DNA from: Sphaerotilus hippei
GTDB taxonomy: Bacteria > Pseudomonadota > Gammaproteobacteria > Burkholderiales > Burkholderiaceae_C
Direction: 5' to 3'
Assembly (NCBI RefSeq): GCF_003201595.1
Contig: NZ_QJJS01000004.1
Coordinates: 147,862 to 211,861 of the forward strand
Length of the DNA: 64,000 bases
Positions 20,439 to 36,128 of the stretch are shown here, piece by piece. Position numbers and translations under genes: made by a program. The notes beneath the pieces were generated by a model. It had not been told where the DNA came from. It was given only the letters and a program-made list of their open reading frames with translations, and did no database searches. Numbering within the stretch: the first letter of the stretch is position 1; each line of letters starts with the position of its first letter.

Positions 20439-20483
20439 CCCTTTTTCCCACCCTTTGAGCTGACTCAAGAAAGCCCTCCTGGC

Positions 20484-21647
20484 ATGTTCAAGTACTTCCC
20501 CACCAACTACGTCTGGAACCTCTCGGTCGATCTGGCCATCGAGATGGGCGCCAAGATTGGCGAGATCGAAGCCATGTGCTCACCGCTGCAAGAGGCGGCC
20601 AAGGCCCCGGACGCAGAGGGCACCCGTGCCTTCCGTGAAACCTGGGTGCACATGGCCGACCAGCTGTGCGAGCTGGCGACGGAGGATGAGCAGGCCGGGT
20701 GCCTGATCTCGGCCGGCGACAAGCGCAGCCGTGCCGCCACCTACCTGCTGACGGCCGAGCGCCTGCAGGCCCATGGCGCGCCGGGCCGGGCCGCGCTGTA
20801 TCAGCGCTTCCTGGACCTGTTCGCCCAGGGCCTCCGGCTGAGCCACGAGAACTGCCAGCGTGTCGAGATCCCTTATGAAGGAAAGGTGATCTCGGGCCTG
20901 TACGTGCGGGCCGAAGGCCTGCCGCCTGGCCAGCGTGCTCCGCTGCTGGTGCAGGTCAACGGCCTGGATTCGACCAAGGAGATGAAGTACCGCGTCGGTC
21001 TGCCCCGCTGGCTGGCTCAGCGCGGCGTGTCCTCGCTGGTCATCGACCAGCCGGGCACCGGCGAGGCCCTGCGCCTGCACGGCCTGACCGCCCGCTTCGA
21101 CTCGGAACACTGGGCCAGCCGCGTGGTGGACTGGCTGGAACAGCACGACGAGGTGGATCCGAAGCGCATCGGCTGCGAAGGCGTGTCGCTGGGCGGCTAC
21201 TACTGCCCGCGCGCCGTGGCCTTCGAGCCGCGCTTTGCCTGCGGCGTGGTCTGGGGCGCCAACCACGACTGGCGCGATGTGCAGAAGCGCCGGCTGGAGA
21301 AGGAAGGCAACTTCCCCGTGCCGCACTACTGGGCGCATGTCTGCTGGGTCTGGGGCGCCAAGGACATGGACGACTTCATGCGCATCGCCGAGAACGTGCA
21401 CCTCGACGGCGTGGTCGAGAAGATCCGCGTGCCCTTCCTCGTCACCCACGGCGAGAAGGACAGCCAGATCCCGCTGAAGTGGGCCCACCGCACCTACGAG
21501 CAGCTGGTCAACAGCCCGAAGCGCGAACTGAAGGTCTTCACCGACCGCGAAGGCGGCGTTCAGCACTCCAGCTTTGACAACTCGGCCAATGCCGGCGCCT
21601 GCATCGCCGACTGGGTGGCCGAAACCCTGGGCGGGCGCACCGCCTGA
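20484..21647 (+). CDS. FrsA-like alpha/beta hydrolase, module copy A
   Basis: A 387-residue hydrolase with a helical N-terminal cap domain (1-125, MFKYFPTNYVW) and an alpha/beta fold. The nucleophile is Ser235 in GVSLGG; the likely acid is Asp326 in HGEKDSQ and the base His361 in GGVQHSS. The shape matches the 2,6-dihydroxypseudooxynicotine hydrolase group, which breaks C-C bonds of beta-diketone-like ring products. It is followed by the VOC dioxygenase, Rieske ferredoxin and FAD monooxygenase genes, consistent with cleavage of the meta-ring-opened product. A paralogue lies at 32627. The exact substrate is unknown. Confidence 0.85.
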   Translation: MFKYFPTNYVWNLSVDLAIEMGAKIGEIEAMCSPLQEAAKAPDAEGTRAFRETWVHMADQLCELATEDEQAGCLISAGDKRSRAATYLLTAERLQAHGAPGRAALYQRFLDLFAQGLRLSHENCQRVEIPYEGKVISGLYVRAEGLPPGQRAPLLVQVNGLDSTKEMKYRVGLPRWLAQRGVSSLVIDQPGTGEALRLHGLTARFDSEHWASRVVDWLEQHDEVDPKRIGCEGVSLGGYYCPRAVAFEPRFACGVVWGANHDWRDVQKRRLEKEGNFPVPHYWAHVCWVWGAKDMDDFMRIAENVHLDGVVEKIRVPFLVTHGEKDSQIPLKWAHRTYEQLVNSPKRELKVFTDREGGVQHSSFDNSANAGACIADWVAETLGGRTA

Positions 21648-21737
21648 GCGCGCTTTCCGTCTGAGCACGCGCTCCGCCCCCCTCCTCCCCTTTCCGCCCC
21701 CTTTCCACCCCATTGCGCTTTCACGAGGACCCCCACC

Positions 21738-22685
21738 ATGAACATCACCGGACTGGAGACCCTGGTCTTCGGCGTGGAAGACCTGGCCGGCTGCCGCCAG
21801 TACCTGCTGGACTACGGCCTGGAACCTTCTGAGCACGACCCCGACCGCCTGGAAGCCCTGGACGGCAGCGGCGTGGTGCTGCGCCCGGCCAGCATGGCCG
21901 GTCTGCCCGACGCGCCCCAAGGCTGCCCGCTGCGCAAAACCGTGCTGGGCGTGGCCGACGCCGCCACCTTGCAAGCCATTGCCGAAGAGCTGGGCCGCGA
22001 CCGCGAGGTCAAGCGCCTGCCCGACGGCAGCATCGAGAGCGTGGACGACTCCGGCTTTGCCATCGGCTTCCAGATCAGCCAGCGCAAGCCGCTGCACCTG
22101 TTGGGTGAGGTCTCCAACGCACCGGGCTCGCCCATCCAGCGGGCGGCCAACCAGCTGGGCGTGGTGGCCGGGCGGGGTCGCATCCAGCCTCGGGCCTTGT
22201 CGCACATCGTCTACTTTGTGCCCGATGTGGCCAAGGCCGAAGCCTTCTACACCCAGCGCCTGGGCTATCGGGTGACCGACCGCTTTGACGGCGTGGGTCC
22301 CTTCATGCAGCCCGCTGGCTCGCTGGAGCACCACAGCCACTTCCTGATCGGCGCGCCTGCCTTCATGCAGGGCGTGGAGCACTTCACTTTCCACTTCGGT
22401 GGGCCCACCGAGGTGATTCAGAACGGCAACCGCTTCATCGAAGCCGGCTACCAGGCCTTCTGGGGGCCGGGCCGCCACATCTTTGGCTCCAACTGGTTCT
22501 GGTACTTCAACAGCCCGCTGGGCTGCCATGTGGAGATGGACGCCGACATGGACCTGCACGACAACACCTGGACCCCGCGCAACACCTCCATCAGTGCCGA
22601 CGCCTCGCAAGCCTTCTTGCTGCGCCGGCGCGACAAGTGGATGCCCGGCCCCGGCACCTCGCATGACGGCGACTACGCCGCCTGA
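21738..22685 (+). CDS. Two-domain VOC extradiol-type dioxygenase, copy A
   Basis: A 315-residue protein made of two VOC domains, the layout of type I extradiol dioxygenases. The C-terminal domain keeps the His-His-Glu iron site: His156 (ALSHIVYF), His215/His219 (EHFTFHF) and Glu266 (CHVEMDAD). The N-terminal domain (1-115) has no metal set, as in 2,3-dihydroxybiphenyl dioxygenase. Hallmarks FWGPGRHI and FWYFNSP are shared with copy B at 31187. It should open a catechol- or hydroquinone-type ring made by the adjacent monooxygenase. Similarity of role to FdeC of Herbaspirillum (A-ring cleavage of 8-hydroxynaringenin) is inference from gene content. Confidence 0.85.
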   Translation: MNITGLETLVFGVEDLAGCRQYLLDYGLEPSEHDPDRLEALDGSGVVLRPASMAGLPDAPQGCPLRKTVLGVADAATLQAIAEELGRDREVKRLPDGSIESVDDSGFAIGFQISQRKPLHLLGEVSNAPGSPIQRAANQLGVVAGRGRIQPRALSHIVYFVPDVAKAEAFYTQRLGYRVTDRFDGVGPFMQPAGSLEHHSHFLIGAPAFMQGVEHFTFHFGGPTEVIQNGNRFIEAGYQAFWGPGRHIFGSNWFWYFNSPLGCHVEMDADMDLHDNTWTPRNTSISADASQAFLLRRRDKWMPGPGTSHDGDYAA

Positions 22686-22686
22686 C

Positions 22687-23040
22687 ATGGCCGAGCCCAC
22701 CGTGCTGTGCCGCGTGGACGAGCTGGCCGATGGCCAGGCCCGGGGCTTCGACCTGGCGGGCGATGGACAGGACCAGTTCTTCCTGGTGCGCCACCAGGGC
22801 CAGCTGCATGCGTGGCGCAATGCCTGCCCGCATGTGGCCGGCGCGCCGATGGCCTGGCGCCGCCACGCCTACCTCAGCGCCGATGGCCAGCAGGTAATGT
22901 GCCACGCGCACGGCGCCCGCTTTGAACCCGACACCGGCTTGTGCGTGCAAGGCCCCTGCCAGGGCCAGCACCTGCAGCGCGTGCCCCTGTGGGTGGACGA
23001 GGCCGGCCAAGTGCGCCTGACACCAGCACCGGCCCGCTGA
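22687..23040 (+). CDS. Rieske 2Fe-2S ferredoxin, copy A
   Basis: A 117-residue soluble Rieske protein. Cluster ligands are Cys47-Pro-His49 and Cys72-His-Ala-His75. It starts one base after the dioxygenase stop codon, so the two are translationally coupled. Small Rieske proteins of this kind pass electrons to oxygenases or keep extradiol dioxygenase iron reduced (as XylT-type ferredoxins do, though those are plant type). Placement between dioxygenase and monooxygenase in both module copies implies a fixed function in the pathway, probably re-reduction of the dioxygenase. Confidence 0.85.
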   Translation: MAEPTVLCRVDELADGQARGFDLAGDGQDQFFLVRHQGQLHAWRNACPHVAGAPMAWRRHAYLSADGQQVMCHAHGARFEPDTGLCVQGPCQGQHLQRVPLWVDEAGQVRLTPAPAR

Positions 23041-23101
23041 ACCGCTACCGCCCACCCCTGGCTACCTCACCCACAACCACCCAAGAGACAAGGAACTCAC
23101 C

Positions 23102-24232
23102 ATGACCGCAATCAAGAACGCCCTGGTGGTCGGCGGAGGTTTCTCCGGCATGGCCGCCGCCATCACCCTGCAGCGCGCCGGCATCGCCGTGGACCTGCTG
23201 GAGCAAGACGCCTCCTGGTGCCCGTTGGGCGCCGGCATCACTGTCAGCGGTGCCACGCTGCGCGCGCTGGAAACCCTGGGCGTGTACCCGCAAATCGCCG
23301 CCGCCGGGGCCCCCACCTCAGGTCTGGACCTCTACACCCAATCGGGCCAGCACCTGACCACGCTGCGCACTCCGCCGGTGATGGGTTCCAGCGTGGCCGA
23401 CACCGGTGGCATCCTGCGTCCGGTGATGGCGCGCATCCTGGCCGACGCCACCCGCGCCGCTGGCGTGAACGTCACCCTGGGCCAGACCTGGACTGACCTG
23501 GAGCAATCCGACGACCAGGTGCATGTGCAGTTCAGCGATGGCCAGCGCCGCAGCTACGACCTGGTGGTGGGCGCCGACGGCGTGCACTCCAAGCTGCGTG
23601 ACCGCCTGATGCCCGAAGTGCCGCCGCTGCAGTACATCGGCCAAGGCGTGTGGCGCGCCGTGGCCCGCCGGCCTGAAGGCCTGGAGCGTGGTGCCATGTG
23701 GTTCGGCCAGCACATCAAGTGCGGCGTCAACCCGGTGTCGGCCACGCAGATGTACGTCTACATCACCGAAGACCGGCCCACCAAGGAACACATCGACCCC
23801 GCCACCTGGCCGGCCGTGGTCAAGGGCCTGCTGGCGCCTTTTTCCCACCCGCTGGTGCAGGACCTGATCCCGCAGATGGACCTGCCCGAAGCCGCCATCG
23901 ACTACCGCCCGCTGGCCAACCTGCTGGTGCCGGCACCGTGGAACCGCGGCCGCGTGGTGCTGATCGGCGACACCGTGGCCGCCACCACGCCGCACCTGGC
24001 CTCGGGCGCCGGCATCGGCATCGAGAGCGGCATCGTGCTGGGTGAAGAGCTGGGCCGCCACAGCGACCTGCAAGCCGCGCTCGACGCCTTCCACGCCCGC
24101 CGCTTCGAGCGCTGCCGCATGGTGGTCAAGAACTCCGAGCGCCTGTGCAAGATCGAGATCGACGGCGGCGACAAGGCCGAGCACGCGCAGATCATGCGTG
24201 ACTCGCTGCTGGCCCTGACCCAGCCGATCTGA
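23102..24232 (+). CDS. FAD-dependent aromatic monooxygenase, copy A
   Basis: The 376-residue protein is a class A flavoprotein hydroxylase: VVGGGFSGMAAA for the FAD dinucleotide fold (about 9-20), LVVGADGVHS for the DG motif (about 155-164) and LIGDTVAATTPHLASGAGI for the GD motif (about 287-305). It hydroxylates aromatic rings with NAD(P)H and O2. RBS aagagacaagga is upstream. Together with the VOC dioxygenase it gives the hydroxylate-then-cleave sequence expected for ring A of a polyphenol. The paralogue at 33933 shares all three motifs. FdeE of the naringenin pathway is the nearest functional parallel I can name; not verified. Confidence 0.88.
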   Translation: MTAIKNALVVGGGFSGMAAAITLQRAGIAVDLLEQDASWCPLGAGITVSGATLRALETLGVYPQIAAAGAPTSGLDLYTQSGQHLTTLRTPPVMGSSVADTGGILRPVMARILADATRAAGVNVTLGQTWTDLEQSDDQVHVQFSDGQRRSYDLVVGADGVHSKLRDRLMPEVPPLQYIGQGVWRAVARRPEGLERGAMWFGQHIKCGVNPVSATQMYVYITEDRPTKEHIDPATWPAVVKGLLAPFSHPLVQDLIPQMDLPEAAIDYRPLANLLVPAPWNRGRVVLIGDTVAATTPHLASGAGIGIESGIVLGEELGRHSDLQAALDAFHARRFERCRMVVKNSERLCKIEIDGGDKAEHAQIMRDSLLALTQPI

Positions 24233-24300
24233 GCGTCGCCGGCCCCGCTGCGGCCCGGCGGCATCCACCCGTCGGCCGGCGGCGGTGCGGGGTCTGACCT

Positions 24301-24315
24301 GTTGATGAAATCAAC
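24301..24315. promoter_or_regulatory. Inverted repeat before the second catabolic block
   Basis: gttgat-gaa-atcaac is a perfect 6-bp inverted repeat in an AT-richer stretch (24290-24365) 109 bp before the VOC gene at 24424. The drop in GC and the palindrome suggest a regulated internal promoter for 24424-35878. Confidence 0.4.
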
Positions 24316-24423
24316 AGCCCGTTTCAAAAACAATTGATTTTCTCGAACACTTGGTCTGATTAGCATCCGTCAATTCCCAAACGACAGGCCCGCGTCCCGA
24401 CGGTGCCGACGGAGACCGACCCG

Positions 24424-24870
24424 ATGACTGAATCGCTCACCTGCGCCGTGGGTCCGCTGCGGCCGCACCACTTCGGCATCAGCGTGCCCGACCTCGATGC
24501 CGCGCTGCTCTGGTATGAGCGCATGCTCGGCTTCTCGCTCGAGGAGCGGCTGTTCATCGACAAGATCCCGGCCCACATCGCCTTCGTGCGGCGCGGCCCC
24601 TTCCGCATCGAGATCTTCCAGGTCGAGGGCGCCGCGCCGCTGCCCGACGCACGCCGCGTGCCCAACCTCGACCTGAAGACCCATGGCAACAAGCACATGT
24701 GCTTCGAGGTGCCGGACGTGCCGGCGGCGATGGCGGCGCTGCGCGCGGCCGGTGCCGACATCGCCTTCGAGCTGACGGTGGCGGGCAACCCCACGGCCTT
24801 CGTGCGCGACTGCGCCGGCAACCTGATCGAGTTCCTCCAGCCCTTCGAGTCGCGCCCCGTGGCGGCGTGA
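24424..24870 (+). CDS. Single-domain VOC (glyoxalase-like) protein
   Basis: A 148-residue vicinal-oxygen-chelate protein: [20 protein letters not shown] opens the first half-fold (split HHFGISVPD / [11 protein letters not shown]) and [10 protein letters not shown] with [12 protein letters not shown] closes the second. Candidate metal ligands are His (HHFG), Glu (RIEIFQ), His (NKHMC) and Glu (IEFLQ), a complete glyoxalase-type set. Start ATG 24424 has ggag upstream at 24411. It may be an epimerase, isomerase or dioxygenase on a ring-cleavage product. First gene of the second catabolic block. Confidence 0.8.
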
Positions 24871-24950
24871 GCGGCGGGTTCACCCAGGCAGGGCGGCCCG
24901 TGCAGCCCGCACCGACGATTCCAGTCCCCGTTTCTTCCGGAGTTATCCCC

Positions 24951-26234
24951 GTGACCATCCAGATCATCAAGGCCGGCAAGCCGGCGCAGTTCAAGGCCGA
25001 CATCAACGCCCAGGTGCGTGCCACCGTCGAAGGCATCCTGGCCGACATCGAAAAGCGCGGTGACGAGGCCGTGCGCGACTGCTCCGTCAAGTTCGACAAG
25101 TGGTCGCCCGAGAGCTTCCGCCTGTCGCAAGCACAGATCGATGCCTGCATCGCCAAGCTGTCGCCGCAGACGCTGGAAGACATCCAGTTCGCCCAGGCCC
25201 AGATCCGCAACTTCGCCCAGATCCAGCGCGATTCGATGAAGGACGTGGAAGTGGAGACGCTGCCCGGTGTCGTGCTCGGCCACCGCAACATCCCGATGAA
25301 CTCGGTGGGCTGCTACATCCCTGGCGGCAAGTACCCGCTGATCGCCTCGGCCCACATGAGCGTGCTGACCGCCAAGGTGGCGGGCGTGAAGCGCATCATC
25401 GCCTGCGCCCCGCCGTTCGACGGCGCGCCCTGCCCCGAGATCGTCGCGGCCATGCACCTGGCCGGCGCCGACGAGATCTACTGCCTGGGCGGCGTGCAGG
25501 CCGTGGCCGCCATGGCGATTGGCACCCAAAGCATCAAGGGCGTGGACATGATCGTCGGCCCGGGCAACGCCTATGTGGCCGAGGCCAAGCGCCAGCTGTT
25601 CGGCCGCGTGGGCATCGACCTGTTCGCCGGCCCGACCGAAACCATGGTGATCTGCGACGACACGGTGGACGCCGAACTCGTGGCGGTCGACCTGCTGGGT
25701 CAGGCCGAGCACGGACCGACCAGCCCGGCCTACTGCCTCACCACCAGCAAGACGATCGCTGAGCAGCTGCCCGCCGCCATCGACAAGGTGCTGGCTCGCC
25801 TGGACACCGCGCCCATCGCCAGCGTGTCCTGGCGCGACTACGGCGAGATCATCCTGTGCGACACCGACGAGGAGATGCTGGCCGAGTCCGAGCGCCTGTG
25901 CTCCGAGCACGTGCAGGTGATGACCCGCGACCCGGACTGGTTCCTGCAGCGCATGAGCAACTACGGCGGCCTGTTCCTCGGCGCCCGCACCAACGTCAGC
26001 TACGGCGACAAGGTGATCGGCACCAACCACACGCTGCCCACGCAGGGGGCGGGCCGCTACACCGGCGGGCTGTGGGTGGGCAAGTTCATCAAGACCCACA
26101 CCTACCAGCGCGTGCTGACCGACGAGGCCAGCGTGATGGTGGGCGAATACTGCTCGCGCCTGTGCGGCTACGAGCACATGAGCGGCCACAAGGAGCAGGC
26201 GGACATCCGCGTGCGCCGGCTGAAGAAGGCCTGA
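24951..26234 (+). CDS. Histidinol-dehydrogenase-family dehydrogenase (HpsN-like), not for histidine synthesis
   Basis: The 427-residue protein has the HisD signature ([53 protein letters not shown], and C-terminal [10 protein letters not shown]). The Zn and catalytic residues in AEHGPTS and the C-terminal [13 protein letters not shown] are present. No other his gene is near; HisD paralogues of this type include HpsN (sulfopropanediol dehydrogenase), and they oxidise alcohols to acids with NAD. The start is GTG 24951 with ggag 10 bp upstream. In this cluster it probably oxidises a side-chain alcohol of an aliphatic intermediate. Confidence 0.85.
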
Positions 26235-26277
26235 GGTGATGTGGACGGTTGCAGGCTGGCCATGGTGGGCGCGTGGT

Positions 26278-26377
26278 CGGGAGACCGGGGGATCCGGTTC
26301 CGCTCATGTCCTCCGCCGCCAGCCTGCGGCTGTCGTCTCCCCCTTTACTTCGCTGCACCGGATCCCCCGGTCTCCCG
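26278..26377. repeat. Nested palindromic repeat (family 1), minus-oriented core
   Basis: Perfect 21-bp outer arms (26278-26298 and 26357-26377) enclose a 58-bp core that runs, on the minus strand, gcagcgaagtaaagg, ggagacgac, an inner hairpin and ggacatgagcgg. The same core in opposite orientation lies at 26452-26511, and diverged copies are at 45376-45427 and 45590-45640. The outer arms differ in sequence between copies, while the core is conserved. The gap 26235-26561 holds only these elements. Confidence 0.8.
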
Positions 26378-26438
26378 CCCTTCACACGGCATCGCACTGC
26401 GGGCCGAGACAGTCCGCCAACGGTGGTTGGCGGCGGGG

Positions 26439-26525
26439 CAGGGGGGAGTGGCGCAGCGAAGTAAAGGAGGAGCTGATGGCCTTCAGGCCATCAGCGGGGG
26501 ACATGAGCGGAGCCACTCCCCCCTG
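26439..26525. repeat. Nested palindromic repeat (family 1), plus-oriented core
   Basis: Outer arms caggggggagtggc (26439-26452) and its complement (26512-26525) are perfect over 14 bp. Inside is gcagcgaagtaaagg, aggag, then a perfect 10-bp hairpin gctgatggcc-ttca-ggccatcagc (26472-26495), then gggggacatgagcgg. It may stabilise mRNA ends or limit read-through between the HisD-like and SDR genes. Confidence 0.8.
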
Positions 26526-26561
26526 TCACGCTGCCCGCCTCAACCTTTGCACGACCAGACC

Positions 26562-27326
26562 ATGAACTCACTCAACGGACAAGTCGCCGTCGTCACCGGC
26601 GGTGCCGGCGGCCTCGGTGAAGCCATCTGCATCGGCCTGGCCCAGGCCGGCTGTGCGGTGGTGGTGGGCTACCACAGCTCCGAAGGCCCGGCGCGCGCGC
26701 TGGCCGGCCGGCTGCCTCCCGCCGCGCTGCCGCATGCCGCCCTCCGGTGCCCCGTCACCGACTCGGCGGCCCTGGCCGCGCTGGCGGTCGAGGTCGGCCG
26801 GCGCTACGGCCGCTGCGACCTGCTCGTCAACTGCGCCGGCACCACCCGCTTCGTGCCCCACGGCGACCTCGACGCGCTCGACGATGCGCTGATCGACCAG
26901 ATCCTGGCCACCAACGTGCGCGGCCCCATCGCCGCCGTGCGGGCGCTCAGGCCCCTGCTCGCCGCGCCGCGCACCGAGGGCGGCACCGGCCTCGTCGTCA
27001 ACATCTCGTCCATCGCCGCGGTCACCGCCATGGGCAGCAACATCGCCTACTGCGCCAGCAAGGCCGCGGTGGACAACCTGACCAAGTCCCTGGCCCGCGC
27101 GCTGGCCCCCGCGGTGCGGGTGCTCAGCGTCTCGCCCGGCCTGGCCGACACCGAGTTCGTGAAAAGCATGGACGTGGGCTGGCGCGACGAACAGGCCGGC
27201 CGCACCCCGCTGCAGCGCCTGGCCCTGCCCGAAGAGGTGGCCGCCGCCGTCGTGGCCGCGGCCACCCACCTCACCTTCACCACCGGCGCGGTCATTCCCG
27301 TCGATGGTGGCCGGCCGCTGGCCTGA
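26562..27326 (+). CDS. SDR-family oxidoreductase
   Basis: The 254-residue protein carries TGGAGGLG (about 13-20), NCAGTT (about 91-96), the catalytic serine in NISSIAAV and Tyr-x-x-x-Lys in YCASK (about 161-165), and the closing GAVIPVDGG. It is a complete classical short-chain dehydrogenase. It lies behind the palindromic repeat pair and 24 bp ahead of the FAH-family gene, starting the tightly packed run to 35878. Substrate is unknown. Confidence 0.87.
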   Translation: MNSLNGQVAVVTGGAGGLGEAICIGLAQAGCAVVVGYHSSEGPARALAGRLPPAALPHAALRCPVTDSAALAALAVEVGRRYGRCDLLVNCAGTTRFVPHGDLDALDDALIDQILATNVRGPIAAVRALRPLLAAPRTEGGTGLVVNISSIAAVTAMGSNIAYCASKAAVDNLTKSLARALAPAVRVLSVSPGLADTEFVKSMDVGWRDEQAGRTPLQRLALPEEVAAAVVAAATHLTFTTGAVIPVDGGRPLA

Positions 27327-27350
27327 GCACCGAACCCCGAGGAGACACGC

Positions 27351-28340
27351 TTGAAACTCGCCACCCTGAAGAACGGCACGCGCGACGGCCGCCTGGTCGT
27401 CGTCTCGCGCGACCTGACGCGCGCCATCGACGCCGCCCCCGTGGCCGCCACCCTGCAGCAGCTCATCGAGCACTGGGACGACCTGGCGCCCGGCGTGCAA
27501 TCCATCTACGAGCTGCTCAATGCCGGCACGGCGCTCAACGACTTTCCCTTCGATCCGGCGCAGGCCATGTCGCCGCTGCCGCGCACCCACCAGTTCGTCG
27601 ACGCCTCGGCCTTCCTGAACCACGGCAACATCATGGAAGAGGCCTACCAGCTCTCCGTGAAGAAGACGCCCGGCATCCCGGTGCTGGTGCAGCGCCAGAG
27701 CGACGACTTCTGGGGCCCCTGCGACGACTACCCGCTGGTGGAGGCCGACCACGGCGACTTCGAGGGTGAGTTCGCCGTCATCGTCGACGACACGCCGATG
27801 GCCAGCACGCCCGAGGTGTGCGCCAGCAGGATCCGGCTGGTGATGATCTTGAACGACGTCAGCATGCGCGCCCACCTGTTCCGCGAGCTGCAGATGGGCT
27901 TCGGCTTCATCAACGCCAAGCCGGCCACGGTGTTCGGCCCGGTCGCCGTCACCCCCGACGAGCTGGGCGAGGGCTGGGGCGCCGACGGTCGCATCCACCT
28001 GGACATGAACGTCAGCCGCAACGGCCAGTGGTTCGGCGAGCCCAACGGCCGCGAGATGGACTGGAGCTTCGGCGAGCTGCTGGCGCGCCTGGGCCTGAAC
28101 CGCAACCTGCGCGCCGGCACCATCCTGGGCACCGGCACGGTGTCCAACCAGGCCGCCCGCACCGTGGGCTCGGCCTGCCTGGCCGAGAAGCGCGCGCTGG
28201 AGAAGATCAGCACCGGCGACTCCATCACCCCCTTCCTGCAACTGGGCGACCGGCTGCGCTTCGAGGTGTTCGGCGCCGACGGCCAGAGCATCTTCGGCGC
28301 GGTGGACCACCAGTTCGTTCCCTTCAAGGCAGAGCAGTAA
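27351..28340 (+). CDS. Fumarylacetoacetate hydrolase family protein
   Basis: A 329-residue intact FAH-family enzyme. The start is TTG 27351: the N-terminus MKLATLKNGTRDG is the family standard and ggag lies 6 bp upstream, so the rare codon is well supported. Metal-binding acids are in DFEGEFAVIVDD, and the substrate domain ends in IFGAVDHQFVPFK. These enzymes hydrolyse C-C bonds of beta-diketo acids, or decarboxylate/hydrate ring-cleavage products. A broken relative lies at 12446. The gene abuts the next start codon (28341) with no gap. Confidence 0.88.
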   Translation: MKLATLKNGTRDGRLVVVSRDLTRAIDAAPVAATLQQLIEHWDDLAPGVQSIYELLNAGTALNDFPFDPAQAMSPLPRTHQFVDASAFLNHGNIMEEAYQLSVKKTPGIPVLVQRQSDDFWGPCDDYPLVEADHGDFEGEFAVIVDDTPMASTPEVCASRIRLVMILNDVSMRAHLFRELQMGFGFINAKPATVFGPVAVTPDELGEGWGADGRIHLDMNVSRNGQWFGEPNGREMDWSFGELLARLGLNRNLRAGTILGTGTVSNQAARTVGSACLAEKRALEKISTGDSITPFLQLGDRLRFEVFGADGQSIFGAVDHQFVPFKAEQ

Positions 28341-30194
28341 ATGACCTACGACATCGTTGCCATGGGGGCCGGCCACAACGGCCTGGTCGCCGCCGCCTAC
28401 CTGGCCAAGGCCGGCAAGAAGGTGCTGGTGCTGGAGCGCAAGTCCTACCCGGGCGGTGGCGTGTCCACCCGCCAGCTCAACACGCCGGGCTACTGGCATG
28501 ACGAGCACAGCAGCGTGCACATCATGATCCAGGGCAACCCGATGCTGCGCCAGGACGAGCTGGGCCTGCTGAGCCAGCACGGGCTGGACTACCACTACTC
28601 GCCGGTGCCGCACGCGACCATCTTCCCGGACCAGTCGGTGCTGTTCACCTACAAGGACCTGGACAAGACCTGCGAGTGTTTTGCCAAGGTCAGCCCCAAG
28701 GACGCCGAGACCTACCGGAACTTCGTCAAGATGAGTTCCGAGATCCTGAAGGTCTTCATGCCCGGCCTGTACAGCCCGCCGCCGCCGCTGGGCGAGCTCG
28801 TCGCGATGCTCGACCGCAGCGACGAAGGCCGGCTGATGCTGGAGTACATGACCCGGGACTGCCTGAGCCTGGTCAACGACCTGTACGAAAACGACAAGAT
28901 CAAGATCCACCTGCTGCGCCTGGTCAGCGAGAACCTGCAGGCGCCCAACGAGCTGGGCACCGGCATGGGCGTGCTGCTGATGCCCGGCATCATCCACACC
29001 TATGGCGTCAGCCAGCCGGTGGGCGGCAGCGGCAAGCTCACCGAGTCGCTGGTGCGCTGCATCGAGAGCTTCGGCGGCGAGGTGCGCTGCAACGCCGAGG
29101 TGGCGCAGATCCTCACCAGCGGCGGCCGCGCCACCGGCGTGCGCATGGCCGACGGCGAACGCATCCTGGCCCGCGACGCGGTGATCGGCGCCATCCACCC
29201 GCACGTGGTGCGCAAGTTCGTCGACGGTGTGCCCGAGCCGGTGCTGAAGAAGGCCGAGCGCGCCCAGCTCGCGCCGTTCTCCATCATGGTCAGCCACTAC
29301 GACCTCAAGGAGAACTGCCAGTACCACGCCGGTGAGGAGGTGGGCTACGCCACGATGCTGGAGTTCATGGCCACCGACCGCCTCGACGAGATGCTGGCCG
29401 ACTTCGATGACTTGAAGCGTGGCCTGATCACCGAGCGCCGCCTGTGCGCCGGCGGCGACGAGAGCATCGGCGACAAGAGCCGCGTGCCGGCCGGCGCCGG
29501 CATGTTCCACGGCATCACCTTCGCGCCCTACACGGTGACGGACAAGCGCTGGAGCGGCCAGCACTGGGACGAGTTCAAGGAGGAGATCGGCGATCTCTCG
29601 CTGGCCCACTACCGCAAGTTCGTCAAGAACCTGACCCCCGACAACATCATCGCGCGCAGCATCGTCAGCCCGGTGGACCTGGAGCGCTCCAGCCCCAACA
29701 GCATGAAACGTGGCGACCTGCACGGGGTGGCGCCGTACTTCCACCAGAGCGCGGGTGCGCGGCCCACGGCCGACCTGGGCCAGTACACCGTGCCGGGGGT
29801 CGATCGCCTGTTCCTGGCCGGCCCGTCGCAGCACCCGGGCGGGGGTGTCTATGGCGCCGGCCGCGCCACGGCCATCAAGATGTTCGAGGCGCTGGGCATG
29901 GACTTCACGTCCGTGGCCGCCGGGGCCCGCCAGGACAGCGCCAACCCGAACGTGATGGCTGCCGCGAAGAAGGACGGCATGGTCCTCAGGGGTGCCGCCA
30001 ACGAGGAGCTGATGCACGTCGAGGCCATCGAGCGGGTCGGCGACGAGCTGGTCATCAAGGGCAAGAGCTTCGGCACCATGCCGATGCAGGCCCGGCTCGA
30101 TGCCTCGTCCGCCCGGGCCGGCCTGAAGCTGCTGGGCCTGGGCAAGCTGGCCTTCCTGGCCTCGCTGCCCTTCCGCTCGGACGCCAAGGACTGA
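28341..30194 (+). CDS. Phytoene-desaturase-like FAD/NAD(P)-dependent oxidoreductase
   Basis: A 617-residue flavoprotein starting with an ADP-binding fold (DIVAMGAGHNGLVAAAYLA, residues 4-22) and VLVLERKSYPGGG. The C-terminal FAD signature is VDRLFLAGPSQHPGGGVYGA (split VDRLFLAGPS / QHPGGGVYGA, about 488-508). This is the CrtI/retinol-saturase superfamily, yet no carotenoid gene is near. About 90 residues follow the FAD motif, longer than usual. Superfamily members desaturate or isomerise; in this pathway it could dehydrogenate an alicyclic or C-C single bond, such as flavanone or dihydrochalcone types. That role is inference. Confidence 0.8.
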   Translation: MTYDIVAMGAGHNGLVAAAYLAKAGKKVLVLERKSYPGGGVSTRQLNTPGYWHDEHSSVHIMIQGNPMLRQDELGLLSQHGLDYHYSPVPHATIFPDQSVLFTYKDLDKTCECFAKVSPKDAETYRNFVKMSSEILKVFMPGLYSPPPPLGELVAMLDRSDEGRLMLEYMTRDCLSLVNDLYENDKIKIHLLRLVSENLQAPNELGTGMGVLLMPGIIHTYGVSQPVGGSGKLTESLVRCIESFGGEVRCNAEVAQILTSGGRATGVRMADGERILARDAVIGAIHPHVVRKFVDGVPEPVLKKAERAQLAPFSIMVSHYDLKENCQYHAGEEVGYATMLEFMATDRLDEMLADFDDLKRGLITERRLCAGGDESIGDKSRVPAGAGMFHGITFAPYTVTDKRWSGQHWDEFKEEIGDLSLAHYRKFVKNLTPDNIIARSIVSPVDLERSSPNSMKRGDLHGVAPYFHQSAGARPTADLGQYTVPGVDRLFLAGPSQHPGGGVYGAGRATAIKMFEALGMDFTSVAAGARQDSANPNVMAAAKKDGMVLRGAANEELMHVEAIERVGDELVIKGKSFGTMPMQARLDASSARAGLKLLGLGKLAFLASLPFRSDAKD

Positions 30195-30198
30195 TGCC

Positions 30199-31152
30199 AT
30201 GACCCATGTCGTCGTCACCGGCTCCGAAGGTTTCGTCGGCCAGGTGCTCGTGCAGCGCCTGCTGCGCGAGGGCCTGGGCGGCCAGCCCGTTTCGCGCCTG
30301 ACCTTGATGGACGTGCGCTTTGCCGAGCCGCACGCCGATGCCCGCGTGCGCCAGCTCGCCGGCAGCATCGCCGACCCTGCCGTGCGCGCCCGGGCGAACG
30401 AAGGGGGCGTGGACGCCGTCTTCCACCTGGCCAGCGTGCCCGGCGGCGCGGCCGAGAAGCACTACGAGCTGGGCCGCGAGATCAACCTGATAGCCACGCT
30501 GGGCCTGCTCGAGGACCTGCGCGCCCAGGCCGCCGATGGCCAGGTGCCGCGCTTCATCTTCGCCAGCACCATCGCCGTCTACGGTGAACACCTGCCGCCC
30601 GAGGTCGACGAGCAGACCCTGCCCAACCCCGGCCTGAGCTACGGCGCCCACAAGCTGGCGGGTGAATGCCTGGTGGCCGACGCCACGCGCAAGGGCTGGG
30701 TGCAGGGCTGCTCGCTGCGCCTGCCCGGCGTGGTGGCGCGCCCCGGCGACGGCGCCGGGATGATGAGCGCCTTCATGAGCCAGCTCTTCTGGAAGCTGGC
30801 CGCTGGCGAGCCCATCACCGTGCCCGTCAGCGCCGAGGGTGTGGCCTGGTGGATCTCGGTGGGAGCGTGCGTGGACAACCTGCTGCATGCCGCCACCGTG
30901 GACCCGGCCCGCCTGAACGCCCGCCGCAGCTACCAGATGCCGGTGCTGCGCCTGACGGTGGCCGAGCTGGTCGAGGCGCTGGCACGGCGCTTCGGCGACG
31001 ACCGCCGCGGCCTGGTCACCTACGCCCCCGATCCGTCCATCGAGAAGCTGTTCGCCCGCTACCCGCCGCTGGCCACGCCCGAGGCGCTGGCCCTGGGCCT
31101 GCGGCACGACGGCGACATCGATCAGCTCATCACCCGGGCGATGGCGCACTGA
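30199..31152 (+). CDS. NAD-dependent epimerase/dehydratase (DenD-like extended SDR)
   Basis: The 317-residue extended SDR shows TGSEGFVG (about 7-14), FHLASVPGG, the serine in FASTIAVYGE and Tyr-x-x-x-Lys in YGAHK. The N- and C-terminal patterns (AEKHYELGREINL, SLRLPGVVARPG) are like the D-erythronate dehydrogenase (DenD) group. It is in a catabolic operon with start 4 bp after the preceding stop. It may oxidise a hydroxy acid or act on a sugar released from a glycoside; which one cannot be told. Confidence 0.8.
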   Translation: MTHVVVTGSEGFVGQVLVQRLLREGLGGQPVSRLTLMDVRFAEPHADARVRQLAGSIADPAVRARANEGGVDAVFHLASVPGGAAEKHYELGREINLIATLGLLEDLRAQAADGQVPRFIFASTIAVYGEHLPPEVDEQTLPNPGLSYGAHKLAGECLVADATRKGWVQGCSLRLPGVVARPGDGAGMMSAFMSQLFWKLAAGEPITVPVSAEGVAWWISVGACVDNLLHAATVDPARLNARRSYQMPVLRLTVAELVEALARRFGDDRRGLVTYAPDPSIEKLFARYPPLATPEALALGLRHDGDIDQLITRAMAH

Positions 31153-31186
31153 GCGCCTGCCCGCACGGCATTCAAGGAGACAAGAC

Positions 31187-32119
31187 ATGAACATCCTCGG
31201 ACTCGACACCCTGGTCTTCGGCGTGGACGACCTCGCCGGCGCCCGCCAGTACCTGCTCGACTACGGCCTGGACGAAGTGAGCTACAGCGCCGACCGTGGT
31301 GGCGTCTGGGCCGCGCTGGACGGCACCAGCATCACCGTGCGCCCGGCCGACTTTCCCGGCCTGCCGCCGCTGCCGCCCGGCGCCCGCACGCCCTGCCTGC
31401 GCGAGACGGTCTACGGCGTGGCCGATGCGGCGACGCTGGCCGCGCTCACCGAGCACCTGAGCGCCGAGCGTGAGGTCAGTCTGGGCGAGGACGGCGTGCT
31501 GCGCTGCATGGACGACGGCGGTTTTGCCGTCGGCTTCCAGGTCACGGTGCGCCGGCCCTACAGCGCCCGGTTCCTCGGCTTCAACGTGCCCGGCCAGCCA
31601 CCCGGCCGCGCGCCCAACGACTGCGCCGCCGACCCCGATGAAGTCATCAAGCCGCGCAGCCTGTCGCACGTCGTCTACTTCGTGCCCGACGTGGCCCGCG
31701 CCGAGGCCTTCTACGCCCGCCTGGGCTTCGTGGTGACCGACCGCTTCAACCACCTGGGCCCGTTCATGCGCCCGGCCGGCACGCTCGACCACCACACGCT
31801 GTTCATGATCGAGCGCCAGAACGATCACATGGTCGGCTGCAACCACTTCACCTTCCACCTGGGCTCTGGCGCCGAGGTGCTGCAGCACGGCTGGAACTTC
31901 ATCAACAAGGGCTACAAGAGCTTCTGGGGGCCGGGCCGCCACATCATGGGCAGCAACCACTTCTGGTACTTCAACAGCCCCTTCGGCGCGGTGATGGAGG
32001 TCGACGCCGACATGGACCTGCACGATCAGACCTGGGTGCCGCGCGAGATGGATCCGGGCAGGGACAACTCGCAGATCTTCCTGTTCGGCGCGCTGCCGAA
32101 ATGGGCCCCGGGCGAGTAA
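31187..32119 (+). CDS. Two-domain VOC extradiol-type dioxygenase, copy B
   Basis: A 310-residue paralogue of the enzyme at 21738. Iron ligands are retained: His in SLSHVVYF, His in NHFTFHL and Glu in VMEVDADMD. Shared blocks include DTLVFGVDDLAG, VVYFVPDVA, FWGPGRHI and FWYFNSP. It is preceded by aaggagacaag, a good ribosome site. In copy B the order is dioxygenase, Rieske, hydrolase, monooxygenase, while in copy A the hydrolase is first. Divergence between the copies suggests different substrates, for instance different ring-hydroxylation patterns. Confidence 0.85.
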   Translation: MNILGLDTLVFGVDDLAGARQYLLDYGLDEVSYSADRGGVWAALDGTSITVRPADFPGLPPLPPGARTPCLRETVYGVADAATLAALTEHLSAEREVSLGEDGVLRCMDDGGFAVGFQVTVRRPYSARFLGFNVPGQPPGRAPNDCAADPDEVIKPRSLSHVVYFVPDVARAEAFYARLGFVVTDRFNHLGPFMRPAGTLDHHTLFMIERQNDHMVGCNHFTFHLGSGAEVLQHGWNFINKGYKSFWGPGRHIMGSNHFWYFNSPFGAVMEVDADMDLHDQTWVPREMDPGRDNSQIFLFGALPKWAPGE

Positions 32120-32121
32120 AT

Positions 32122-32205
32122 GCCCCACCCCCTGCGCGCTTCGCACGCCCCCTCAAGGGGGCACTGCCAGCGGCCCGGCAAAGCCGGTTCCGCGGCAGTC
32201 GCTGG
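32122..32205 (-). repeat. Palindromic intergenic repeat (family 2), minus orientation
   Basis: Read on the minus strand it runs gccgcggaaccggct, gccgggccgctgg, then gcccccttgagggggc (self-complementary stem) and a G-rich end ggggtggggc. The same order occurs at 59855-59940 and, shortened, at 52845-52898. Between genes of one operon such elements may act in mRNA stability. Confidence 0.75.
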
Positions 32206-32224
32206 ATGAATCCAACTCTCGGCC

Positions 32225-32581
32225 ATGTCGCACGAATCCCGCTTTCTCTGCCGGCTTGACGAGCTGCCCGACGGCGGCTCGCGCGGGCTGCTGCGCGAGG
32301 GCTTCGAGGACAGGCTCTGCGTGGTGCGCCAGGGCGACGAGGTGTTCGTCTGGCTCAACGACTGCCCGCACGAGCACCGGCCGCTGGAGTACCGGCAGGA
32401 CCAGTTCCTGTCGGGCGACGGCGGCCACATCGTCTGCTACGCCCACTCGGCGCACTTCGACATCCGCAGCGGCCACTGCTTTGCCGGCCCCTGCACCGGC
32501 GCTCACCTGCTCAAGGTGCCCGCCGAGGTGCGCGACGGCGAGGTGTGGATCTCCGCCGACCTGCCCTCGGTCTTCGACTGA
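32225..32581 (+). CDS. Rieske 2Fe-2S ferredoxin, copy B
   Basis: A 118-residue paralogue of the protein at 22687 with cluster ligands Cys47-Pro-His49 and Cys71-Tyr-Ala-His74. Shared features are the opening LCRLDELPDG and C-terminal GPCTGAHLLKVP. It lies after a family-2 repeat rather than directly coupled to the dioxygenase. Likely partner of the adjacent dioxygenase or monooxygenase, as in copy A. Confidence 0.85.
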   Translation: MSHESRFLCRLDELPDGGSRGLLREGFEDRLCVVRQGDEVFVWLNDCPHEHRPLEYRQDQFLSGDGGHIVCYAHSAHFDIRSGHCFAGPCTGAHLLKVPAEVRDGEVWISADLPSVFD

Positions 32582-32626
32582 CGCCCCGTTCGACCCCCAT
32601 CGTCCCCGACTTCCAGGACCCACCCG

Positions 32627-33868
32627 ATGTTCCAGTACTTCCCCACCAACTACGTGTGGAGCCTCTCCACGATGATCGCGCTGACCCACGGCGGCAACGT
32701 CGGCGAGGTGGACGCGATGTGCGCCCCCATCCTGGAAGCCGCCCGGGCCGGTGACGACCCCGGCACCCTGGCGTTTTACGAAGCCTGGAAAGGCGGCGGC
32801 GACCGGCTCATCACCCTGGCCGAGGCCGACCTGCAACGTGGCCACCGCCTCTCGGCCGGTGAAAAGTTCGGCCGCGCCGCGCTGTACTACGGCATTGCCG
32901 AACGCATGCAGGCCCACGGTTTCGAGGCCCGGCTGCAGATGTACCAGCGCTCGCTGGAGCTGTTCGCGCTGGCCCGCCAGCACGGCCGCGAAAACTGCGA
33001 ACGGGTGGAGATTCCTTACGACCTTGGCCCCCAAGACATCGCAAGCGATGTCGCCCCCCCGAGGGGGAGCGCTGAGCTTGGGGCGGCCCGGCGCTCAGCC
33101 GGCGTCCACCTCTCTGGCCTGCTGGTGCGTGCCGAAGGCCTGGCACCCGGCCAGCGGGCCCCGCTGGTGGTGGTGATGAACGGCCTGGATTCCACCAAGG
33201 AAATGCTGGCCAAGAGCGTGATGGGCACGATGTTCGCCCGCCGTGGCCTGAGCGCGCTGTTCATCGACCAGCCCGGCACCGGCGAGGCGCTGCGCCTGCA
33301 GGGCCTGCCGGCGGTGCACGACACCGAGGTCTGGGCGTCCAAGGTGGTGGACTGGCTGGTGCAGCGGCCCGACGTGGACCCGCTGCGCATCGGCGCGCTG
33401 GGCGTGTCGCTGGGCGGCTACTACTGCCCGCGTGCGGTGGCCTTCGAGCCGCGCTTCGCCTGCGGCGCCGTCTGGGGGGCCAACCACGACTGGCGTGCCG
33501 TGCAGCAGGCGCGCCTGAATCGGGAGGGCGAGAACCCGGTGCCGCACTACTGGAAACACGTGCAGTGGGTCTTCGGCGCCCGGGACCTGGACGACTTCTT
33601 CGCCAAGGCCGAGCACATGCACCTCAACGGCGTGGTCGAGAGGATCCGCGTGCCCTTCCTCGTCACCCACGGCGAGCGCGACCGCCAGATCCCGCTGAAG
33701 TACGCCCACCAGACCTACGAGCAGCTGGTGAACTGCCCGAAGAAGGACCTGTTCATCTTCGACGCCAGCACCGGTGGCGTCGAGCACAGCTCGCTGGACA
33801 ACCCGAACAACGCCGGCAACCAGATCGCCGACTGGCTGGCCGAGCAGCTCGGCGGCACGGTGGCGTGA
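32627..33868 (+). CDS. FrsA-like alpha/beta hydrolase, copy B, with inserted repeat
   Basis: A 413-residue paralogue of the 20484 hydrolase, 26 residues longer. Catalytic elements are conserved: GVSLGG nucleophile, HGERDRQ acid and GGVEHSS base. The whole length difference lies after VEIPY (residue 131): copy A goes on EGKVISGLY, while copy B has DLGPQDIASDVAPPRG, SAELGAARRSAGVHL and then SGLLVRAEG. The extra DNA is palindromic and resembles family-2 repeats. The insertion sits on a surface turn at the start of the alpha/beta domain as judged from copy A, so the enzyme may still fold. Role as for copy A. Confidence 0.85.
   Translation: MFQYFPTNYVWSLSTMIALTHGGNVGEVDAMCAPILEAARAGDDPGTLAFYEAWKGGGDRLITLAEADLQRGHRLSAGEKFGRAALYYGIAERMQAHGFEARLQMYQRSLELFALARQHGRENCERVEIPYDLGPQDIASDVAPPRGSAELGAARRSAGVHLSGLLVRAEGLAPGQRAPLVVVMNGLDSTKEMLAKSVMGTMFARRGLSALFIDQPGTGEALRLQGLPAVHDTEVWASKVVDWLVQRPDVDPLRIGALGVSLGGYYCPRAVAFEPRFACGAVWGANHDWRAVQQARLNREGENPVPHYWKHVQWVFGARDLDDFFAKAEHMHLNGVVERIRVPFLVTHGERDRQIPLKYAHQTYEQLVNCPKKDLFIFDASTGGVEHSSLDNPNNAGNQIADWLAEQLGGTVA
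33020..33105 (+). repeat. Palindromic repeat inserted in frame within a hydrolase gene
   Basis: This stretch is absent from the paralogue at 20484. It contains a perfect hairpin gacatcgc-aa-gcgatgtc (33035-33052), a C-rich/G-rich block cgccccccccgagggggagcg like that of family 2 (compare 59894-59914), and a gctgagc/gctcagc stem. Net insertion is 78 bp, a multiple of three, and no stop codon is introduced. Confidence 0.75.
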
Positions 33869-33932
33869 CGCCCCCCAGCGGCCCGACCGCCGTGGTCGGC
33901 CGCTCCATGACACATCCCGAGGAGACATCCAC

Positions 33933-35066
33933 ATGGCACTGATCAACAAGGTCCTGATCGTCGGCGGCGGCGTGGGCGGCATGTGCGCCGCCATCCAGTG
34001 CGCCAGGCAGGGCATCGAGGTCGATCTGGTCGAGATCAACCCGGACTGGGCGCCCGATGGCGCGGGCATCACCATCAGCGGCCCCAGCCTGCGCGCGCTG
34101 CGCACCGTGGGGGTGGTCGACGAGGTGCTGGCCCAGGGCGGCTTCTGGTCGGCCATCGACATCTGCGATGCCCAGGGCCAGCTCACCCGCACCGTGCCCA
34201 TGGCCACCGCCCACGGCGCTGAAGAACTGCCCTGCGCCGCCGGCATCCTGCGCCCGGTGCTGGCCGACATCCTGGGCCACGCCACCCAGCGCGCCGGCGC
34301 CAATGTGCGCCTGGGCCTGAGCTTCGACAGCCTGCACCAGGACGCCGACGGCGTGGACGTGCGCTTCACCGACGGCAGCCACGGCCGCTACGACCTGGTG
34401 GTGGGCGCCGACGGCGTCAACTCCAGGGTGCGCCAGGTGGTGATGCCCGACTTTCCCGGCCCGCAGTTCACCGGCCAGGGCTCGTGGCGGGCGGTGGTGC
34501 CGCGCCTGCGCGAGAACAGCACCATCTACATGGGCCGGACCACCAAGGCCGGCATGAACCCGATCAGCGCCACCGAGTGCTATCTGTTCGTGCTGGACAA
34601 GCGCGCCGGCATGGACTTCATCCCGCCGGCCGAGTGGCCCGCCCGGCTGGCCGAGCTGCTGCAGGAGTTCGGCGGCCAGGTCGGCCAGATCCGCGACGCG
34701 CTGCTGGCCGGCGAGATGAGCGACGCCCGGCTGCTGTACCGCCCGCTGGCCGGCCACATGATCGACGGCCCCTGGCACCGCGGCCGCATCGTGCTGCTGG
34801 GCGACACGGTGCATGCCACCACGCCGCACCTGGCCTCGGGCGCGGGCATCGCGATGGAAGGCGCCATCGTGCTGGCCGAAGAGCTGGCCCGCCGCCACAG
34901 CCTGGAAGGCGCGCTGCTGGCCTACGCCGGACGCCACTACGATCGTGCCCGCCTGGTGGTCAGCGCCTCGGGCCGGCTGGGCCAGATCGAGCAGCAGGGC
35001 GGCTCGGTGGAAGCGCACACCCTGGTCATGCGCGACGCCCAGGAGAAGCTGCGCGCCCCGCTGTGA
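33933..35066 (+). CDS. FAD-dependent aromatic monooxygenase, copy B
   Basis: A 377-residue class A flavoprotein hydroxylase, paralogous to 23102. Motifs are LIVGGGVGGMCAA (about 8-20), LVVGADGVNS and LLGDTVHATTPHLASGAGI. ATG 33933 has gaggag 10 bp upstream. It probably hydroxylates the ring that the copy B dioxygenase opens. Differences from copy A in the middle (substrate) domain, for example MDFIPPAEWPARL against IDPATWPAVVKGL, suggest another substrate or position. Confidence 0.88.
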   Translation: MALINKVLIVGGGVGGMCAAIQCARQGIEVDLVEINPDWAPDGAGITISGPSLRALRTVGVVDEVLAQGGFWSAIDICDAQGQLTRTVPMATAHGAEELPCAAGILRPVLADILGHATQRAGANVRLGLSFDSLHQDADGVDVRFTDGSHGRYDLVVGADGVNSRVRQVVMPDFPGPQFTGQGSWRAVVPRLRENSTIYMGRTTKAGMNPISATECYLFVLDKRAGMDFIPPAEWPARLAELLQEFGGQVGQIRDALLAGEMSDARLLYRPLAGHMIDGPWHRGRIVLLGDTVHATTPHLASGAGIAMEGAIVLAEELARRHSLEGALLAYAGRHYDRARLVVSASGRLGQIEQQGGSVEAHTLVMRDAQEKLRAPL

Positions 35067-35125
35067 ACCTGCCCCGCCCGGCCCCGGGCGCCCCATCACC
35101 CTTGCCTTGCGACTGGCCCAGGACC

Positions 35126-35878: not shown

Positions 35879-35905
35879 GCGGCCCGGTGCCCGGCCAGCC
35901 CGACA

Positions 35906-35941
35906 GGGGGCGCGCCACGACGCCGTGGCGCGCCCCCTTTT
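35906..35941 (+). terminator. Rho-independent terminator of the catabolic run
   Basis: gggggcgcgccac (35906-35918), loop gacgcc, gtggcgcgccccc (35925-35937), then tttt. The stem is a perfect 13 bp and the U run follows directly. It ends the transcript that contains the second enzyme module. Confidence 0.88.
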
Positions 35942-36083
35942 GCCATGCCGACCTCCAGGCGGATCACCGGGACGGCCCCTCCGTCATTTCGATCGCTGTG
36001 TCTGTTTTCGATTGAATTGAAAATGGGTTTCTAAGAGTAAACCCCACTGCGGGGCGGGGACGGTGGACGTATAAACACGGCAT

Positions 36084-36128
36084 TGCACGCGCGTGCAGTT
36101 TTTTTCCAGCGTTCTGCACGCGCGTGCA
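36084..36128. promoter_or_regulatory. Twin identical 14-bp LacI-type operators
   Basis: tgcacgcgcgtgca occurs at 36084-36097 and again at 36115-36128, each a perfect palindrome with the central CG of LacI-family sites. Their centres are 31 bp apart, close to three helical turns, so both face one side of the DNA. They precede the Hyi-like/dehydrogenase/LacI operon and are probably bound by the LacI protein at 38146. The preceding sequence 36000-36050 is AT-rich and likely holds the promoter. Confidence 0.75.

Follow-up and report, generated by a model that had tools for sequence, protein, structure and literature searches.

Two fde-type gene modules set head to tail in Sphaerotilus hippei, probably serving different classes of plant polyphenol

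A 64,000-nucleotide stretch of the Sphaerotilus hippei genome (contig NZ_QJJS01000004.1, positions 147,862 to 211,861; hereafter the window, from whose first letter all coordinates are counted) carries what we read as two fde-type catabolic operons lying head to tail, whose modules most likely take different polyphenol classes by the ring-cleavage route proposed below. The source bacterium would thus probably break down two kinds of plant polyphenol. Each module contains a C-C hydrolase (HYD), a two-domain extradiol dioxygenase of the VOC family, a Rieske ferredoxin (FD), and a monooxygenase dependent on flavin adenine dinucleotide (FAD; FMO), in the order HYD-VOC-FD-FMO in copy 1 (20484–24232) and VOC-FD-HYD-FMO in copy 2 (31187–35066). 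An earlier note on this DNA had already pointed to the repeated set and its altered order, and rightly so: both sets have intact frames and coding-type composition, and the copies are 60% (HYD), 55% (VOC), 42% (FD), and 46% (FMO) identical, with E values from 3e-26 to 3e-177, far beyond chance. The literature found describes two clusters for bacterial cleavage of the flavonoid A-ring, fde and ifc. Our reading is supported by a gene-by-gene match to fde, by hydrolases whose nearest relatives cut acyl chains off polyphenols, and by the separate standing of the clade that holds copy 2.

The reference for fde, the naringenin operon of Herbaspirillum seropedicae, was taken to be a locus (L146, genome G870) in which the genes run LysR regulator, 305-amino-acid protein, hydrolase, VOC, Rieske, FMO, MFS transporter, cyclase, cupin, FAH, and DenD-like. 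It is read as fde because the T-N11-A boxes between its LysR gene and the next gene number exactly 14, of which nine fall within 50 bp, the numbers published for fdeR-fdeA of H. seropedicae SmR1 (PMC10799723). Herbaspirillum sp. Sphag64 (L105), which had stood in for fde, was replaced once this box count fitted. FdeA, FdeD, and FdeE are assigned following PMC8552027, and FdeC and FdeE following PMC11069340; that the L146 hydrolase is FdeB is deduced from gene order. Measured against L146, module 1 (copy 1 with its partner genes) gives 54% identity for the LysR regulator, 82% for HYD1, 62% for VOC1, 49% for FD1, and 54% for FMO1, so that an fde core set stands under an FdeR-type regulator. Copy 2 is a homologous four-enzyme core (HYD2 56%, VOC2 58%, FD2 41%, FMO2 43%). 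The likeness to Fde proteins and the Fde-type LysR regulator that the earlier note had proposed are thereby borne out, and the pairs do not fall into unrelated families.

The idea of a simple duplication is not borne out. Quick maximum-likelihood trees, with SH-aLRT as their only support measure, put each copy nearer to proteins of other genera than to its partner copy. Clade A unites copy 1 with Ideonella, Marinomonas, Bradyrhizobium BTAi1, and others (VOC, 35 rows, support 99; FMO, 31 rows, support 100) and excludes the FdeC and FdeE rows of H. seropedicae. Clade C holds copy 2 (VOC, 7 rows, 98, with an inner group of 6 rows at 99; FMO, 6 rows, 100, also in the FMO core; HYD, 6 rows, 100; FD, 6 rows, 97). 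The remaining rows, those of fde included, are called group B, a set whose monophyly is not shown. To judge from these trees, copy 1 is a further Fde-type member in a distinct clade, and the clade of module 1 is related to, yet distinct from, the naringenin operon. The window joins clades A and C, Derxia gummosa and Burkholderia sp. Ax-1719 each join group B with C, and Curvibacter sp. HBC61 joins A with B. These patterns indicate that the fde type forms a large family, which counts two or more clades in addition to the fde group, and that some genomes stack different clades.

Two side observations concern clade A. Four Marinomonas loci (L043, L045, L051, L052) carry a second hydrolase (57–59%), and four clade-A hydrolase rows, probably the Marinomonas ones, group with HYD2 in a 12-row set. 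The modules of L049 (Marinomonas aquiplantarum) and L050 (Alteromonas lipotrueae), both of clade A and both with a CrtO-like gene (51–52%), are almost identical, which suggests that the module recently passed from one family to another or that a genome is mislabelled.

The families of HYD1, VOC1, FD1, FMO1, FD2, and FMO2 were set by Pfam and NCBIfam; VOC2 and HYD2 were assigned as homologues of the copy 1 proteins. Only the C-terminal half of the two-domain VOC protein rises above the Pfam cut-off; this domain carries the His-His-Glu iron ligands of a type I extradiol dioxygenase (H156/H215/E266), aligned to 1HAN, invariant in 25 of 25 rows, and present in both copies. Both copies retain the Rieske CxH...CxxH motif, the hydrolase motifs GVSLG, HGExD, and HSS, and the FMO motif GGGxxG. 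The earlier statement that catalytic residues are intact in both copies stands with one reservation, namely that the histidine of the FMO "GD" motif is alanine in FMO1. The same replacement is found in 29 of 31 clade-A rows, and the histidine is kept in all 50 group-B and all 6 clade-C rows, one example of how conserved FMO positions vary from group to group.

The label "FrsA-like" given to the hydrolases, which would place them in the FrsA esterase family, had to be dropped. HYD1 scores 19.1 against a Pfam cut-off of 22 and 18.7 against an NCBIfam cut-off of 477, HYD2 scores 23.3 against the latter, and C-C hydrolases come first in the fold matches. By sequence the nearest solved relatives of HYD1 are DHPON hydrolase (2JBW, the best PDB match, 1.5e-16) and Wdyg1, with AntI further down. 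An AlphaFold2 model of HYD2 (confidence score pLDDT 83.5, from 27 alignment rows) matches, in this order, DHPON hydrolase, Wdyg1/Ayg1, an acylaminoacyl peptidase (3FNB), AntI, and FrsA; the model has the helical cap and aligned Ser-Asp-His triad of a DHPON-hydrolase-like C-C hydrolase. Sequence and model together place both hydrolases in the DHPON-hydrolase/Ayg1/AntI fold rather than that of FrsA. DHPON hydrolase, Ayg1/Wdyg1, and AntI all remove acyl chains from rings or polyphenols; their identity in the fold alignments is 17–25%, however, and the substrate differs.

Module 1 follows fde closely. On the plus strand lie HYD1 (FdeB-type, 20484–21647), VOC1 (FdeC-type, 21738–22685), FD1 (FdeD-type, 22687–23040), and FMO1 (FdeE-type, 23102–24232), in the same order as in fde; the FdeR-like LysR gene (15996–16970, minus strand) is divergent from the module. 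Partner genes of fde are found upstream of copy 1 (8937–11639, plus strand), encoding an MFS transporter (8937–10121; 59% to that of H. seropedicae fde by tblastn), a cyclase-family metal-dependent hydrolase (10264–11034; 85% to the fde cyclase, with a weak arylformamidase match) that is a candidate pyranone or lactone opener, and a Cupin_2 protein (11037–11639; 74% to the fde cupin). They are followed by an SDR dehydrogenase (11663–12421, plus strand), 51% identical to the SDR of an fde-type cluster on a Diaphorobacter plasmid. Unlike in fde, the MFS-cyclase-cupin part lies upstream and is set off from the core by a Rieske oxygenase pair; FMO1 and VOC1 are members of clade A and do not group with fde; FAH is a relic; and a DUF1302/DUF1329/MMPL set is present. 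No match to FdeA was obtained in the window or in about 19 kb on either side with the H. seropedicae fde query.

The FAH relic (12428–12998, plus strand) consists of pieces at 12428–12739 and 12672–12998 in different frames, its N-terminal third being absent. No intact fde-type FAH or DenD was found in module 1, the window and its flanks being covered, and the sole DenD match sits in the second block described below. Module 1 would consequently need the FAH and DenD of that block or, for FAH, a second family member (41%) on contig C18 of the genome. The intervening pair (13063–15179, minus strand) comprises a reductase (13063–14061) and a Rieske oxygenase of the VanA_C family (14058–15179), possibly an O-demethylase or hydroxylase. 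Between the regulator and HYD1 are plus-strand genes for a DUF1302 protein (17352–19061; 62% in L034 and 76% in L035), which we take to be an outer-membrane, porin-like protein, and a DUF1329 protein (19071–20438; 75% in L034 and 88% in L035); each has an annotated relative. With a YCF48-like protein and an MMPL transporter they form a set that the Diaphorobacter plasmid cluster also has. Identity to Ideonella livida is 93% for FMO1 and 80% for the adjoining VOC1, a disparity because of which module 1 looks mosaic. The window's LysR intergenic region holds 7 T-N11-A boxes in 381 bp, which is not informative, and a promoter and terminator scan of 20000–36500 gave nothing above shuffled sequence (0 promoters against 0.7; 6 terminators against 5.2).

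Copy 2 ends a block of eleven plus-strand genes (24424–35878; block 2), and the enzymes between the copies are part of it. They had been supposed to extend a pathway common to both copies; HisD-like, SDR, FAH, CrtO-like, and DenD-like genes are instead a fixed part of block 2. The block opens with a small one-domain VOC protein (24424–24870; Glyoxalase family), followed by a HisD-like dehydrogenase that begins near 24951 and not at 24699 as once placed (24951–26234), an SDR dehydrogenase (26562–27326), FAH, an acylpyruvase-type hydrolase and the only intact FAH of the cluster (27351–28340), a CrtO/CrtI-like FAD oxidoreductase that serves as block marker (28341–30194; 85–94% in other block-2 loci), and an epimerase-family protein resembling D-erythronate dehydrogenase (DenD-like, 30199–31152; 247.5 bits for NCBIfam ErythonDh, under the cut-off of 325). 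VOC2 (31187–32119), FD2 (32225–32581), HYD2 (32627–33868), FMO2 (33933–35066), and a further SDR, SDR2 (35126–35878), complete it. The small VOC gene, SDR2, and the upstream fde genes had been missed in the earlier note. No match to the cyclase or cupin of the fde accessory set was found within block 2, and CrtO-like and HpsN-like genes are present instead.

The HisD-like protein was rejected as a histidine-biosynthesis HisD, since in the PDB search HpsN (sulfopropanediol 3-dehydrogenase), its nearest solved relative, matches at 7e-117 against 2e-75 for HisD. The CrtO-like protein has its nearest match in phytoene dehydrogenase (1.6e-20) and scores 214.6 bits for CrtO, far short of the cut-off of 1000; its predicted structure is of low confidence (pLDDT 33.9, 4-row alignment).

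L126/L127 (Derxia), L128, L129, and L135 share the window's gene order from the HisD-like gene to SDR2, and L094, in which the start of the stretch cuts the block, shares it from the CrtO-like gene to SDR2. HpsN-like and CrtO-like genes are present in the window and in the four complete relatives, all four of which also have the small VOC gene before HisD (82–87%; L127, L128, L129, L135). SDR2 relatives (70–75%) follow FMO2 in all five (L126, L128, L129, L135, L094), a TctC gene intervening in L128, and an SMP-30-type lactonase and an MFS transporter are added in L128, L129, and Derxia. Block 2 is a separate lineage, with an fde-type core plus CrtO-like, HpsN-like, its own FAH, and DenD-like genes. 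As a side observation, HYD2 has 413 residues against 387–389 in four relatives (Derxia, L129, L135, L094), the difference lying in about 26 additional in-frame residues around 131–160, where pLDDT is low.

How widely these genes occur was read from the best 80 loci among 473 VOC relatives in genome contigs, with neighbors taken within 10-kb flanks or up to the contig end. In 70 of the 80 loci the full set of four core families is present; singly, the counts are 76 for HYD, 77 for FMO, 75 for FD, 69 for LysR, 61 for FAH, 48 for DenD-like, 3 for CrtO-like, and 1 for HisD-like, and relatives of the VanA-type Rieske oxygenase are found in 5 (L038 at 80%). Of 299 sampled genomes of the family, the source genome counted, 25 have a VOC1 relative of at least 53% identity, the seven best candidates per genome at most being scored. 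Matches at E up to 1e-80 occur in 19 of 294 sampled genomes of another family; for VOC2, 5 of 399 sampled genomes of the order have a match at E up to 1e-60. A CrtO-like match (E up to 1e-120) is found in four of the 299 family genomes (the source, G243, G246, and G296), and a clade-C VOC occurs in just these four. The candidates scored in G243, G246, and G296, up to seven per genome, include no VOC of clade A or group B, and block 2 can therefore stand alone. Three congeners in the sample (G058, G170, G248) gave neither a VOC nor a CrtO-like match. Two of the three share 1829–2745 and a collinear block at about 43.4–54.2 kb with the window at the DNA level, and parts of 54–62 kb match all three at another place; no DNA match longer than about 0.95 kb lies between 3 and 19.5 kb, the DNA search having covered the window outside 19.5–43.4 kb. 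On these findings the cluster looks lineage-specific.

In the route we propose, the monooxygenase would hydroxylate a phloroglucinol-type A-ring at C8 to give a catechol, by analogy with FdeE, which hydroxylates at C8 (PMC11303751). The VOC enzyme would then break the C8–C8a bond of the ring to yield a lactone that bears an acylpyruvate chain, and the hydrolase would cut the C4a–C5 ring-acyl bond, releasing oxaloacetate from 5-hydroxyflavonoids. The remaining C-ring/B-ring part would be processed in module 1 by the cyclase and cupin and in block 2 by the CrtO-like, HpsN-like, DenD-like, SDR, and FAH proteins. The ferredoxin may serve the monooxygenase, as in the FdeED view (cited in PMC8552027), or may re-reduce the dioxygenase iron.

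The hydrolase step draws on the ifc cluster for isoflavone in Variovorax sp. V35 (Aoki et al. 2024, PMC11069340), which likewise has a monooxygenase, a glyoxalase-type dioxygenase, a DHPON-hydrolase-like protein, and a cupin. There IfcB opens the ring to X2, and a further step, not assigned in that account, gives X3 (PMC11069340). For daidzein, X2 (C15H10O7) plus water minus X3 (C11H8O4) is C4H4O4 (2,4-dioxobutanoate), and the same cut on 8-hydroxynaringenin leaves oxaloacetate. FAH-family enzymes split acylpyruvates such as 2,4-dioxobutanoate. We infer that a DHPON-type hydrolase is suited to the ring-acyl bond of 5-hydroxyflavonoids. The prediction is that only 5-hydroxyflavonoids require the FdeB-type hydrolase, which would set oxaloacetate free; this would explain why the V35 mutant in its DHPON-like hydrolase still degraded daidzein, a compound with no 5-OH (PMC11069340).

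Gene sets similar to block 2 lie within 12 kb on plasmids of Rhizobium rhizogenes K84, Novosphingobium aromaticivorans, and Novosphingobium sp. ES2-1 (HisD-like 65–71%, CrtO-like 58–62%, HYD 43–50%, small VOC 40–54%, FAH 42–45%, DenD-like 40–43%). No ferredoxin homologue was found in the three sets. The two Novosphingobium sets have an FMO at 34–42% and a VOC at 27–31%; neither passed in the K84 set, though other dioxygenases are annotated there. The HisD-like gene of the ES2-1 plasmid (L164:19834-21094) is unannotated and matches in two frames, owing either to a sequencing error or to a break in the gene. The searched part of the openly licensed literature yielded no account of block 2, and its clade carries enzymes that the literature searched was not found to tie to flavonoids. 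Our conjecture, which we hold at somewhat less than even weight, is that block 2 may be an undescribed flavonoid-class pathway, marked by the CrtO-like and HpsN-like genes and spread through Beta- and Alphaproteobacteria, in which the FMO/VOC pair is swapped to fit the ring and a constant oxidizing tail handles a common non-aromatic remnant, perhaps a hydroxylated lactone from flavan-3-ols such as catechin.

It is unlikely, although the strongest of the alternatives, that block 2 serves a non-flavonoid phenol (a lignan, neolignan, or other acylphloroglucinol-like compound) whose aliphatic CH2OH side chain the CrtO-like and HpsN-like enzymes oxidize. HpsN-type enzymes turn primary alcohols into acids, and the HisD-like protein matches that type; the low VOC identity in the Novosphingobium plasmid sets, moreover, means that the ring substrate may vary. 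The block 2 core, however, is 41–58% identical to Fde proteins, and FMO2, at 43%, is closer to FdeE than is IfcA of the ifc cluster, for which the published figure is 36.3% (PMC11069340); FMO1 stands at 54%.

Less probable again is that both modules act in turn on one molecule with two phloroglucinol-type rings, such as a biflavonoid or proanthocyanidin dimer, each taking one ring. The modules do adjoin here, Derxia gummosa and Burkholderia sp. Ax-1719 likewise have block 2 together with a copy-1- or fde-type module, and module 1, with its broken FAH, could lean on block 2. But three of the five other genomes holding block 2 (one of the five in part) have no copy-1-type VOC among the candidates scored, up to seven per genome; copy-1-type modules commonly stand without a CrtO-like neighbor, which is lacking in 77 of the 80 loci; and other genomes pair other clades, as does Curvibacter sp. 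HBC61. Of the two options that the earlier note had left side by side, two polyphenols or two positions, the first is favored over the second because of those three genomes. A recent tandem duplication, just diverging and without new function, has in its favor that the same four families recur in one cluster, but it is scarcely credible when the proteins are 42–60% identical, each copy is nearer to other genera, and gene order and partner genes differ.

The reading of two fde-type modules for different polyphenols has points to reckon with as well. Module 1 has no intact FAH or DenD of its own; at conserved positions neither window FMO fully agrees with FdeE, so that C8 hydroxylation may not carry over; the accounts of fde and ifc that were found show no function for the hydrolase, and the ifc hydrolase mutant had no phenotype (PMC11069340). 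In the HYD tree clade A and group B are not resolved from each other, and a clade-A VOC is combined with a group-B FMO in L060 and L063. CrtO-like genes stand beside the clade-A modules of L049 and L050, and Burkholderia anthina has one (46%) at a distance of about 10 kb from a module of the fde type that lacks the HisD set; going by these matches, a CrtO-like protein need not mean block 2 once one leaves the family sample and its threshold. Lastly, some carriers are marine or belong to Novosphingobium, and these are no proof that the substrate is a plant flavonoid. For root colonization and carbon turnover it is of consequence which polyphenols are detoxified by which soil bacteria.

The surroundings of the cluster can be described briefly. 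A second DUF1302/DUF1329/YCF48/MMPL set with its own LysR gene (L133:11993-19861, window 1–231) ends at the window start, and 5 kb after it lies a YCF48/MMPL pair (5142–8883). A HipA-type kinase gene (280–1814) and a small helix-turn-helix-like partner are a probable HipBA toxin-antitoxin pair. Adjoining block 2, the region 36124–42495 appears to encode sugar-acid catabolism: it has a hydroxypyruvate-isomerase-like TIM barrel and then, as read from the proteins, a LacI-like regulator, a gene (39206–40999, minus strand) with an IclR-like start and an SMP-30-like end, and an aldehyde-dehydrogenase-like gene. Several proteins resembling TctC-type solute-binding proteins, judged by their first residues, are encoded at 57448–63216.

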